64,000 bases of DNA from Neomicrococcus lactis (lineage in GTDB: Bacteria; Actinomycetota; Actinomycetes; Actinomycetales; Micrococcaceae): the NCBI RefSeq assembly GCF_014200305.1, contig NZ_JACHBL010000001.1:1302001-1366000 (forward strand), given 5' to 3'. The notes under the pieces were generated by a model. That model saw only the letters and a program-made list of their open reading frames with translations, was not told the origin of the DNA and made no database searches. A program made the translations under genes and the position numbers. Below, piece after piece: positions 58,471-60,995 of this stretch (position 1 is its first letter; the number at the start of each line of letters is the position of its first letter).

Positions 58471-58569
58471 TTTCTAGCGTTCGGCCGCTTTCGTGTTCCG
58501 CTTCCCGAGGTCCGGACAAACGGTTCACGAAACGCGCGCTCTGATCAATGCCGCCTTCTTCGTTTCACT

Positions 58570-58629
58570 TTGACGTCGATTGCTGCCAGCTCCATGAATG
58601 TTTGCTGGCACCAATCGACGTCAATTTTT
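58570..58629 (+). terminator. Long terminator after the VOC gene, made of two inverted TTGACGTC repeats
   Basis: Arms 58570-58590 and 58604-58624 (21 nt, one mismatch; TTGACGTCGATTG + CTGCCAGC) with a 13-nt loop and TTTTT after the second arm. Both arms belong to the local TTGACGTC repeat family. Confidence 0.85.
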
Positions 58630-58656
58630 AGTTCCACGTGGACCAAAATGACGTCA
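58570..58656. repeat. TTGACGTC repeat family, left cluster (three copies)
   Basis: GACGTC cores at 58572, 58617 and 58650. The first is inverted relative to the others; the last two are 33 nt apart and share TGG(C)ACCAA-ATSGACGTCAA. Together with the terminator these fill much of the 359-nt gap 58471-58829. Confidence 0.75.
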
Positions 58657-58751
58657 AAGCTTTTTGGGTAGGGCTCGAGCACTAACGAATAGATAACCAG
58701 GTGTCGTCTTAGACGAATGAATCAAGCAGGCGAGCGATGTGCCTTCAATGT

Positions 58752-58850
58752 GTGCAGGTGGATTTTGGGTGCCACGCTCATTGGGTGCAGGTGGATTTAG
58801 GGCGCCACGCTCAATGGCTGCATTTGACCTTAGGCCGCTACCATCAATTC
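58752..58850. repeat. 33-bp tandem repeats at the 3' end of the AbiEi/DUF559 gene
   Basis: Two near-identical 33-bp units (58752-58784, 58785-58817; each starts GTGCAGGTGGATTT, ends CACGCTCANTGG) and a diverged third (58818-58850) that crosses the stop of the gene at 58830. The reverse complement, GTGGCGCCCTAAATCCACCT, resembles the TTGACGTC repeat (TTGGCCTAAATCGACGTC). Confidence 0.8.
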
Positions 58851-59765
58851 GGTCCGACGTTCTTCAATAACCAGTCGCAGTCGTTGGCAGAAGGTTTTGA
58901 AGCCCTCGTTGAAATCCACGGCGCTGCACCGAAGGTTTCGCCATCCCGCCTTTTCCAAGTAGTAGTCCCGACTGTTATCACCATGGTGTTGTGCAGCGTT
59001 GCGGTGATCTCGGCCGTCATAGTGAACGGCAATTCGGAGCTTCTTGTAGCCCATGTCCGCGCTGAAACCAGGTATCCCAATGTGACCAAAGGTCAGCTGG
59101 AGCTCAGGTTCCGGCAGCCCTGAGCGAATAATCTCCAATCGAAGCAATGACTCGGCACGTGAGTCCGAACCGATGCGCGCCTGCTTCGTAGCGACAACCA
59201 GCTTCTTCTTTCCAGTTCCGTGAAAAGTGTCAAGTTCCGAGTTCCACTCAGCCAGCGTCATGAGTGGACGCTCAATACCTTCAAAAGCGAGTCGCGGCAG
59301 GCGGATGAGTTGGTCAATGAGCGCTGTCAGGTCATCAGTTGATAGGAAACAAGCTAAGTCCATCACAGTTCTGGCCGGGCTGGTTATCCGCAGAGGCCCA
59401 AGGTCAATGAGATTGCGACTGACTCGGGACTCATGAGACACAAGACCGGCACGGCGGATACGTGAATGCGGATACTCGACAGACACGTGTATTTGGTCTT
59501 GCGGCAACTCCCTCGGGATCCAGAGCCCATGAACTCGCGCTGCAGAGTAATAACTCACCCAGGCCCGCGGGTACTTCCTACAGACCGCTCGCAGAACATC
59601 CATCTCATCGAACTTTGTTTCCGCCGCAAAATACAGTCCATTCATCTTTGCGCGCTTGATGGATTTGGATCGCAGTTGCCGTCTGGACATTCCAATTTCA
59701 GGCAAGTCTGTGCTGAAAAACGGGCCAGCTTGTAGCTGCGCTGGCAATTGAAGTCTTTGGCTCAC
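58830..59765 (-). CDS. AbiEi-antitoxin-like / DUF559-type nuclease-like protein (orphan)
   Basis: About 311 aa from a GTG at 59765; the open frame reaches 59930, and the true start is uncertain. The N-terminal winged-helix region is FSTDLPEIGMSRRQLRSKSI (~residues 17-36), followed by YYSAARVHGLWIPRE and TSPARTVMDLACFLSTDDLT as in AbiEi/AbiEi_4-like proteins. The C-terminal ~95 residues resemble DUF559/Vsr-type nucleases: ESLLRLEIIRSGLPEPELQL, ADMGYKKLRIAVHYDGRDH, RDYYLEKAGWRNLRC. The usual EYDG acid is His here (HYDG). No AbiEii toxin gene is adjacent. Surrounded by TTGACGTC repeats. Role unknown; defence or DNA-binding functions are guesses. Confidence 0.72.
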   Translation of the reverse strand: MSQRLQLPAQLQAGPFFSTDLPEIGMSRRQLRSKSIKRAKMNGLYFAAETKFDEMDVLRAVCRKYPRAWVSYYSAARVHGLWIPRELPQDQIHVSVEYPHSRIRRAGLVSHESRVSRNLIDLGPLRITSPARTVMDLACFLSTDDLTALIDQLIRLPRLAFEGIERPLMTLAEWNSELDTFHGTGKKKLVVATKQARIGSDSRAESLLRLEIIRSGLPEPELQLTFGHIGIPGFSADMGYKKLRIAVHYDGRDHRNAAQHHGDNSRDYYLEKAGWRNLRCSAVDFNEGFKTFCQRLRLVIEERRTELMVAA

Positions 59766-59874
59766 ACCTCGATCTTTGCTGACTAATTGTGGCAAGCCTG
59801 AGTTATCCACAGATCCAGGTTGCTGATACGGCCCCAAAGCTGACGAAACCTGCCGGTTGGACGCTCCCCCAAAC

Positions 59875-59886
59875 TTTGACGTCGAT
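59875..59886 (+). repeat. TTGACGTC repeat upstream of the AbiEi/DUF559 gene (inverted copy)
   Basis: TTTGACGTCGAT, opposite in direction to the five-unit array that starts 45 nt to its right, so it could pair with the first unit. Confidence 0.65.
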
Positions 59887-59919
59887 AAGTACCAAATGAA
59901 GGCGAATTTGCAGGACTCG

Positions 59920-60143
59920 ATCGACGTCAATGAGGGGTGACTGAGATGAATCTCCCCGCAACCTGGTGCATTTTGACGTCAATGTCGCCGTAATGGCGGG
60001 GAATCGTGGATGCACTTGGCTGAAATTGACGTCAAAGGGCCTGTGACTGCGTGTCAGCAAGGACTCGCTTGGCCTAAATCGACGTCAAAGTGACCGTTGC
60101 TGAAGTTCGGCGAGGCCTCACGTGGCCTAGGTTGACGTTAAAG
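59920..60143 (+). repeat. Regular array of five diverged TTGACGTC repeats (52-53-bp period)
   Basis: GACGTC cores at 59923, 59975, 60028, 60081 and (as GACGTT) 60134: spacings 52, 53, 53, 53. Conserved part about CTTGGCCTAAATCGACGTCA; the middle ~28 nt of each unit differ. It fills most of the 59931-60182 intergenic gap. The repeat copies vary, unlike CRISPR repeats, and no cas genes are near. Confidence 0.8.
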
Positions 60144-60182
60144 TGTGTGCGTCGACGCAGCGAATTCCAGAGAATCCGAAAG

Positions 60183-60995
60183 CTAGGATCCGATTCCGAT
60201 CATCGGCCCGAGCAGCGCAAACCCCACGAAACCAACGGCGTCAAGCAAGAAGTGAGCATAGACGAGCGGCATGACTCGGCGGTACTTCAGATAGAACGCA
60301 CCGAAGATCAGGCCCATCGCGAAGTTGCCGATGAACGGACCCACGCCTTGATACAGGTGGTAGGACCCGCGGACCACAGCACTAATCAGCACCACCCACA
60401 TCGGGCTGAAAGACAATCGGTGAAGCCGGTCAAAGAACCAGCCCACCACCACAACTTCTTCCAAAATGCCGTGCCGAAGCGCGGACAGCAGCAGCACCGG
60501 CACGGTCCACCAATAGGAGTCCAGAGCCGAGGGCACAATCGTGGTGGTCAGTCCAAGTGCACGCCCGGCTGCATACACGGCCAGGGTCCCCAGCCCCATG
60601 GCCAGAAACAGCAAGAACCCCCACAGGGCATCGCGGCCAATGCGGGCAAAGTCGAAGCCCAATAACTTGAATGGCGACACTCGCAAAGACACATACAACA
60701 AGAACAGCACCAGAGCCACCGGCGCCAGTGTGAAGAAGATGTCCAGCAGCTGATACGTCAGATCAAAATACTCGCGCGAATTCAGCGAGTTATTCAGCGA
60801 CGTGGTCTGCGATCCCAGCGGCGCCCGCGTTGCCTTATCCAAGAGATTCACCAGAGCATAAATGCCGGACTTTCCCAGGGACAACGCCAGGACTATGAAG
60901 ATTTCAAACCAGAGAACACGCCGAATAAATCCAGCAGAAGCTCCAGTAGAAGACGACAAACCCCACACATCCATGATCGAAGAACGTGGCTGCAT
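60183..60995 (-). CDS. CPBP-family intramembrane protease homologue
   Basis: About 270 aa; the start is taken at the ATG 60995 (TTG 61013 and ATG 60974 are alternatives, none with a good ribosome site). Around eight helices. Motif 1 is GILEEVVVVGWFFDRL, where the family EExxxR has Val in place of Arg. Motif 2 is SYHLYQGVGPFIG with His, and motif 3 LVYAHFLLDAVGF with His. The two Glu and two His needed for a metal-type site are kept. Some CPBP members act as proteases (Rce1-like), others not. 26 nt after the tpx stop. Confidence 0.85.
   Translation of the reverse strand: MQPRSSIMDVWGLSSSTGASAGFIRRVLWFEIFIVLALSLGKSGIYALVNLLDKATRAPLGSQTTSLNNSLNSREYFDLTYQLLDIFFTLAPVALVLFLLYVSLRVSPFKLLGFDFARIGRDALWGFLLFLAMGLGTLAVYAAGRALGLTTTIVPSALDSYWWTVPVLLLSALRHGILEEVVVVGWFFDRLHRLSFSPMWVVLISAVVRGSYHLYQGVGPFIGNFAMGLIFGAFYLKYRRVMPLVYAHFLLDAVGFVGFALLGPMIGIGS

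Follow-up and report, generated by a model that had tools for sequence, protein, structure and literature searches.

Repeat clusters on both sides of an AbiEi-type nuclease fusion gene point to an undescribed self-marking genetic element

Introduction

A stretch of 64,000 nucleotides from Neomicrococcus lactis (contig NZ_JACHBL010000001.1, positions 1,302,001 to 1,366,000 of assembly GCF_014200305.1), here called the window, contains a series of similar sites at intervals of 52 to 53 bp beside a gene of the AbiEi/DUF559 type. Do these sites belong to the gene, and what could they do for it? The initial annotation of this DNA had offered two readings of the regular period and palindromic core: protein binding and a structured RNA. 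We analyzed the sites, the protein encoded next to them, and the corresponding genes and flanks in related genomes.

Results

The repeats lie on both sides of a single gene

GACGTC hexamers are confirmed at 59923, 59975, 60028 and 60081, with steps of 52, 53, 53 and 53 bp leading to 60134. Five such cores had been listed in the initial annotation; their places and spacings and four of the hexamers stand, and the fifth, at 60134, reads GACGTT instead of GACGTC. An extra hexamer at 59878 (core at 59876), inverted and 45 bp from 59923, brings the upstream set to six cores, and three further hexamers at 58572, 58617 and 58650 (spacings of 45 and 33) are located on the downstream side of the gene. 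Read in the direction of the gene, the core steps are 53-53-53-52-45 upstream and 33-45 downstream, and the final core of either set is inverted. The ten-base core is TTGACGTCAA, with variants including TTGACGTCGA and TCGACGTCAA, and a half-site of ~23 bp has the layout core-N6-CCA, with a CCT arm in one copy. The features of this locus (locus A) are as follows.

60119..60141, minus strand: upstream half-site 1, outermost; core TTGACGTTAA at 60132
60066..60088, minus strand: upstream half-site 2; core at 60079
60013..60035, minus strand: upstream half-site 3; core at 60026
59960..59982, minus strand: upstream half-site 4; core at 59973
59908..59930, minus strand: upstream half-site 5; core at 59921, arm CCT
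59876..59898, plus strand: upstream half-site 6, inverted and gene-proximal; forms a 55-bp inverted pair with half-site 5, which was included in the folding
58830..59762, minus strand: predicted AbiEi-Vsr (DUF559/MTES_1575) fusion gene; open reading frame of 310 aa read from GTG
58635..58657, minus strand: downstream half-site 1; core at 58648
58602..58624, minus strand: downstream half-site 2; core at 58615, part of inverted repeat I3 (21-nt arms, 13-nt gap, 95% complementary)
58570..58592, plus strand: downstream half-site 3, inverted; core at 58570, part of inverted repeat I3
58472..60195, no strand: whole bracketed unit, not alignable to the same-genus genome G001 between two conserved neighbour genes

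Each 45-bp unit is an inverted pair, and the pair at 58570-58624 has 21-nt arms that are 95% complementary across a 13-nt gap. The repeat copies are 68-80% identical over 25 nt to a reference copy. With at most one mismatch, the pattern TTGACGTCRA matches 28 times in the window; 100 shuffles gave 9.4 matches on average and never more than 19. In a count where a single core may yield two matches, up to 11 fall within 270 bp, and none of 100 dinucleotide shuffles, counted equally, exceeded 3. The array is confirmed as real, larger than first described and far from chance.

In folding calculations the 55-bp downstream inverted pair reached −36.1 kcal/mol (z = −9.9). The remaining four stretches also folded better than shuffles (z = −3.5 to −4.3), and two 53-bp units (z = −4.1 and −3.5) were much weaker than the downstream inverted pair. 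Right after the stop codon of the nuclease gene, at 58745-58838, there is a tandem repeat of 33-bp units whose sequence does not resemble the cores; two of the downstream cores likewise stand 33 bp apart.

The gene between the clusters encodes a predicted AbiEi-Vsr fusion

The sole clear gene between the two repeat clusters is the AbiEi-Vsr gene, which is located in the intergenic space between a Glyoxalase_3 and an Rce1-like gene. The GTG start is our choice; the longest open reading frame of this gene starts at TTG, 59930. Profile searches with Pfam matched the protein to MTES_1575 (E = 1.5e-5) and DUF559 (E = 0.002), both below the gathering scores, and PADLOC matched residues 2-139 to AbiEi (E = 5.5e-11). 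An AlphaFold model built on a 38-row alignment (pLDDT 93.2, pTM 0.89) resembles the AbiEi antitoxin 6y8q over residues 4-196 (Z 11.3, rmsd 5.8, 171 aligned) and the homing endonuclease I-Bth0305I 3r3p over residues 201-304 (Z 12.3, rmsd 2.3, 95 aligned). The nuclease half also matches Vsr (1cw0, Z 10.0), and TnsA of Tn7 scores lower (Z 7.1). Foldseek alone returned nothing under E 0.001 for the model, its best match being Rv2827c at 0.0018.

The model of the window protein thus joins an antitoxin fold of the AbiEi type to an endonuclease fold of the Vsr/EDxHD type, EDxHD being the name of the nuclease class that includes I-Bth0305I. Residues E204, D236, H253 and D262 are invariant in all 38 aligned relatives, and we take this quartet to be catalytic in the Vsr/EDxHD-type nuclease half. 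Among 38 family members Pfam finds MTES_1575 in 23, DUF559 in 11 and AbiEi_1 in 3. A scan of the window neighbours and six more downstream neighbours revealed no gene for an AbiEii toxin (DUF1814 nucleotidyltransferase), profile searches with the window protein matched no transposase family, and the six proteins scanned around the array included no Cas protein.

Further copies of the repeats in the same genome

The genome of the window (2.70 Mb, two contigs) carries this array family at loci A, B and C, where all nine strict pair matches and the 10 listed of 14 looser matches are found. Locus B (contig C1 of this genome, G000, ~2,467,600-2,468,480) has the same design, with core steps of 53-53-52-45, then ~560 bp to the next core, then 53-45. 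Locus C (~1,534,070) consists of a single 45-bp inverted pair and is flanked by convergent genes. Isolated core matches were also read at 20 loci of the genome: one of them is locus C, and the other 19 are mostly coding-like by eye.

Relative to G001, locus B is an insertion of ~1,014 bp. A search of it for a remnant of the nuclease gene gave no credible match (best E = 0.02), and its 63-aa open reading frame may not be a gene, since it has no match in 98 other genomes. At locus A the neighbour genes are conserved, and judged by tblastn ends the distance between them is at most ~261 bp in G030 and 54 bp in G004. G001 carries a different gene at this spot, by eye a glycosyltransferase-like open reading frame (L119:2373-3095), and insertions in the gap between the glyoxalase gene and the Rce1-like gene seem to vary. 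The G+C content of both inserts (A and B) is 0.53, compared with 0.59 and 0.61 in their surroundings.

A half-site scan revealed a 53-bp array with a different core beside a second DUF559-type paralogue of this genome. Locus D (C1:179241-180116) has 53-bp units upstream and 31/32-bp units downstream in the opposite orientation. Locus E (C1:1854715-1855632) has a GTTAAC core, with inverted pairs on both sides (23-nt arms, 13-nt gap) and an extra half-site 52 bp away. Each of this genome's three matches to the window protein has repeats of its own on either side. The repeats of paralogue D also flank a small lipoprotein-like open reading frame (L101:6395-6898; region L101:6223-7339, G000:C1 ~180,200-181,340), so that the repeats may bracket non-nuclease genes, as in locus B.

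The window consensus is confined to this genome

We searched for the consensus of the window array at several levels of stringency. A strict pair pattern matched one of 395 family genomes, this genome alone. A looser pair pattern matched 12 other genomes, where the matches are coding-like by eye, and a still looser pattern used earlier matched 136 of 148 relatives and is uninformative in G+C-rich coding DNA. A three-core scan of 84,980 species yielded 57 stretches, most of which look by eye like coding repeats or like minisatellites with near-identical units, and a scan with a looser pattern yielded 58 stretches, none of which chained three or more sites. One repeat matched in viral contigs and is coding-like. 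The array DNA had no match in plasmid records, and a comparison of the window protein with the species collection found no relative.

Some arrays of similar appearance were seen in other genomes. A Clostridiales contig (L172:3075-3990) contains 17 sites in which TGACGTCR precedes GGTGCCA, in steps of ~30-53 bp, adjoining a 491-aa open reading frame; these may be replication-origin iterons, with a similar site by convergence. A Carboxylicivirga contig (L153:2273-2389 and L179:3792-3907) contains two arrays of three TGACGTCA cores, 54-55 bp apart, one of which adjoins an integrase-like open reading frame, and these are possibly attachment-site arms of an integrated element. Two loci of a Bifidobacteriaceae genome (L131:3620-3737 and L145:7472-7577) show repeats at 55 and 49 bp that combine a GACGTC core with an inverted AACTAATTCC motif.

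Most tested genes of this family are bracketed by their own repeats

Matches to the gene family (E ≤ 0.001) occur in 89 of the 118 relatives' genomes searched, often in multiple copies. For each gene tested, we compared the 450 bp upstream of the coding match with the first 400 bp past the stop codon, aligning them in either orientation. The test set comprised 81 loci (3 from this genome, 18 obtained together with the match list and 60 added from it), 66 of them in the same taxonomic family (3 own + 63) and 15 in other families of the order; the 60 added loci contributed 45 in the family and 15 in other families. The window's own gene is L079, and L097 was dropped at a contig end. The loci were chosen mainly from the top of one match list, among the matches listed, and the bracketed fraction is therefore not that of a random sample.

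The upstream and downstream flanks matched each other with a score of at least 18 at 57 of the 81 loci (48/66 in the family, 9/15 outside), leaving 24 below this score; at 61 of the 81 the score exceeded all 50 shuffles. Control open reading frames of at least 200 codons, drawn from the same windows of sequence and solely from those of at least 10 kb, never reached 18 (0/141; maximum 17.0; 3/141 at 16 or more). The window gene itself scores 17.0, which is above the maximum of 13.0 in its 50 shuffles, below 18 and equal to the top control. Both loci with an in-frame stop scored under 18. In a separate set made up of all eight matches in plasmid and phage records (Arthrobacter, Tsukamurella, Nonomuraea and one unannotated faecal phage scaffold), seven were bracketed, the miss being Nonomuraea.

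Strong inverted repeats (score ≥18) are present on both flanks at 20 of the 81 loci and at none of 144 controls. At a score of at least 12, they are found upstream of 45 and downstream of 51 of the 81 loci, compared with 10 and 23 of the 144 controls.

The link between repeats and gene is general: most related genes tested carry clusters, usually of their own sequences. This bears out the claim of the initial annotation that the array belongs with the AbiEi/DUF559-type gene. The co-occurrence that it proposed to look for in other genomes is found when each gene's own repeats are used; the window consensus finds this genome alone because repeat sequences mostly differ between genes.

Repeat styles, spacing and specificity

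The repeats come in two styles. In the hairpin style (e.g., G047, G070, G032), there is one element upstream and one shortly past the stop codon; in the array style, direct copies are spaced at 21, 32 or 53 bp. Where the choice of k-mer tracked the repeats (L082, L083, L089, L093 and locus D), the clusters face each other across the gene. Among 80 inverted repeats from 46 loci, 52 span 56-67 bp. Their gaps vary, with 4 and 13 nt the commonest (9/80 each), so the 13-nt match is not universal.

Same-strand spacings of direct copies, among which 21, 32 and 53 bp are common, are most coherent at 10.5 bp of eight periods compared (R = 0.49, n = 110), in a descriptive test that pools related loci and chance k-mer pairs and in which the automatic choice took chance k-mers at several loci. 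This coherence favours protein arranged along a single helical face.

Eight locus pairs have repeats that are alike (score ≥20), and their proteins are 62-95% identical; none of 1,629 pairs below 60% identity has such repeats. The overall rank correlation between repeat and protein likeness is weak (0.07, reached by 27 of 500 permutations). As the alike pairs may be orthologous loci sharing ancestry, these data are consistent with co-evolution of repeat and protein and leave it unproven.

Solo hairpins away from the gene

A hairpin of ~62 bp flanks one gene of this family in G047 and one in G070 (related genus). DNA matching placed the same hairpin at six further places in G047, eight in G070 and six in G020, and all 20 of these solo places hold the hairpin, 77-98% identical to a hairpin consensus. 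The gene family was not found (E ≤ 1e-3) in ~5 kb around any of the 20, one of which is 1.5 kb from a contig end; two gene loci included as positive controls did match. Since solo copies stand apart from the gene and locus B holds no credible trace of it, the repeats are not strictly tied to the nuclease gene.

Across 16 hairpins, pairing of the arms is kept while the letters change (2 of 20,000 permutations). Several solo hairpins sit at the identical place in two species, and these are accordingly old. At the one orthologous place compared across four genomes, each carries either a hairpin or a variant form. Our search of the solo hairpins found no target-site duplication, excision product or clean empty site.

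Discussion

Candidate binding sites of the encoded protein

We regard the two-sided repeat clusters as probable binding sites of the AbiEi-nuclease fusion encoded between them, acting on its own gene. The computed basis for this reading consists of the predicted fold, repeats that lie on both sides and differ between genes, inverted pairs that resemble operators, spacing in helical steps, and solo copies. We assign the sites to the AbiEi half because the inverted pairs are similar in size to published operators and, at loci A and E, have the same gap. AbiEi binds two 23-bp inverted repeats separated by 3 bp; Rv2827c occupies two pairs of sites, each made of 23-bp inverted repeats separated by 13 bp and all of them upstream of the gene (PMC7319586).

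In the mechanism that we propose, the AbiEi half would occupy neighbouring 23-bp half-sites along the same face of the DNA, 53 bp being about five turns, and the bound protein would cover and repress its own promoter as AbiEi antitoxins do. With the downstream cluster, the protein could mark both gene ends, loop them or hold them, and the nuclease would be tethered at these places. Repeat and protein would diverge jointly, each copy becoming its own specificity type. Together, these features point to an undescribed self-marking genetic element. Of the two readings in the initial annotation, protein binding is the better one, and structured RNA has lost ground as the primary explanation, since the 53-bp units fold weakly and several loci have direct repeats.

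Alternative explanations

The same sites could serve mobility. Tentatively, and with less than even confidence, we consider a self-bracketing selfish element in which the AbiEi-Vsr enzyme spreads or exchanges gene-specific repeats, and sometimes the intervening DNA, via its EDxHD-type nuclease, with a private specificity per paralogue; this would be a counterpart of REPIN/RAYT with an unrelated enzyme. A transposon-like form of this idea, in which the clusters form both termini of a small mobile unit, the nuclease nicks or cuts the inverted pairs and either the unit or the ~60-bp pair alone is copied in cis and in trans, is one that we consider possible and lean slightly against. It would account for the solo copies at loci B and C and at the 20 gene-free places in G047, G070 and G020, for the insertion at B that is missing from the equivalent place in G001, for the absence of the A unit between the same neighbour genes in G030 and G004, for hairpin arms that keep complementarity as their letters change, and for the lower G+C of both inserts. 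However, the solo hairpins yielded none of the footprints of movement listed above, the one place compared in four genomes always holds the hairpin or a variant, and some solo hairpins are old enough to share their place in two species. The protein also lacks a recognizable transposase domain, the best matches of its nuclease half being Vsr-like and TnsA of Tn7 reaching only Z 7.1. If the clusters instead formed an unusually long operator of an AbiEi-type repressor, plain autoregulation would suffice, with the downstream cluster as a by-product and the nuclease acting elsewhere, e.g., on phage DNA. This, too, is possible, and we lean somewhat against it. AbiEi proteins do repress their own promoter via inverted repeats (PMC7319586), and in many loci the upstream element is ~60-170 bp before the coding match, whereas the downstream element often starts close to the stop codon, distances that come from alignments with eleven loci in the wrong strand. 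Against an operator alone, inverted repeats are about as frequent downstream as upstream of the 81 genes, and the solo copy at locus C has convergent gene ends on both sides, a setting in which one would not expect a promoter.

That the repeats work in transcripts, as terminators or stabilisers at both gene ends, is improbable in our view. The fold of the 55-bp downstream pair and the other four folded stretches, all better than shuffles, favour such a role, and many loci have a hairpin soon after the stop codon; so too do 23 of the 144 control genes at an inverted-repeat score of at least 12. The two 53-bp units are much weaker in folding, several loci have direct repeats at 21, 32 or 53 bp, and control genes share no such element between their flanks (0/141 at score 18). 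Least credible, and already disfavoured to the point that we give it hardly any weight, is an unrelated interspersed tandem repeat, a minisatellite, standing beside the gene by chance. The 57 stretches of the three-core scan, which come from many genomes with a period of ~45-55 bp and contain GACGTCAA, are the kind of sequence it would predict and are by eye mostly coding or near-identical. Against it, the array family was seen at only three loci in this genome, among all strict and the listed looser matches, and bracketing is specific to the gene family relative to control open reading frames.

Implications

The repeats give each protein a readable candidate DNA target, and the function of a large orphan nuclease family thereby becomes directly testable. 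In the titles and abstract starts that we searched, no function is named for the DUF559/MTES_1575 family and no paper ties DUF559 or MTES_1575 proteins to flanking repeats; a literature search on mycobacterial interspersed repeats found no paper. The family could also supply natural proteins with diverse, predictable DNA specificities.

Comparison with known systems

The initial annotation could match the locus to no described system. This holds for the repeat-bracketed AbiEi-nuclease unit, of which we found no description in titles and abstract starts, and fails for the AbiEi half, which is described and binds 23-bp inverted repeats (PMC7319586). The locus resembles type IV AbiE toxin-antitoxin systems (S. 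agalactiae AbiEi, M. tuberculosis Rv2827c) in the predicted fold of residues 4-196. By analogy, its inverted repeats of ~23 bp would correspond to AbiE operators, with a 13-nt gap at loci A and E as reported for Rv2827c. It differs in that the window protein is predicted to be fused to a nuclease, has no AbiEii beside it, and has sites that are also downstream and dispersed.

With the Vsr/EDxHD homing endonucleases such as I-Bth0305I, the protein shares, in the model, the catalytic fold and the invariant E, D, H and D. Unlike them, the AbiEi-Vsr gene appears to stand alone between unrelated genes rather than in a split target gene, and it has a predicted AbiEi DNA-binding half and repeats on both sides.

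The annotation was right to set the array apart from CRISPR. A regularly spaced repeated motif is common to both, but the copies here are diverged, at 68-80% identity, have a palindromic core, and lie on both sides of one gene whose scanned neighbours are not cas genes. Unlike a transposon or insertion sequence, the unit holds no known transposase or recombinase; clusters that face each other across the gene are seen at array-type loci.

REPINs are abundant in the genomes in which they have been described. The few solo copies seen here (two loci in this genome, 6-8 per genome in one related genus) differ from that pattern, as do the helically spaced direct-repeat arrays of the AbiEi-Vsr units, and RAYTs are tyrosine (Y1, HUH) transposases, to which the Vsr-like fold of the enzyme here is unrelated. 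The two kinds of unit, REPIN/RAYT (REPtron) and AbiEi-Vsr, are nevertheless alike in having a single gene flanked by its own palindromic repeats, repeats that differ per copy, and solo hairpins elsewhere in the genome (PMC3116915, PMC3733652). If the AbiEi-Vsr units move, elements of the REPIN type would have a further route, one that uses no transposase.
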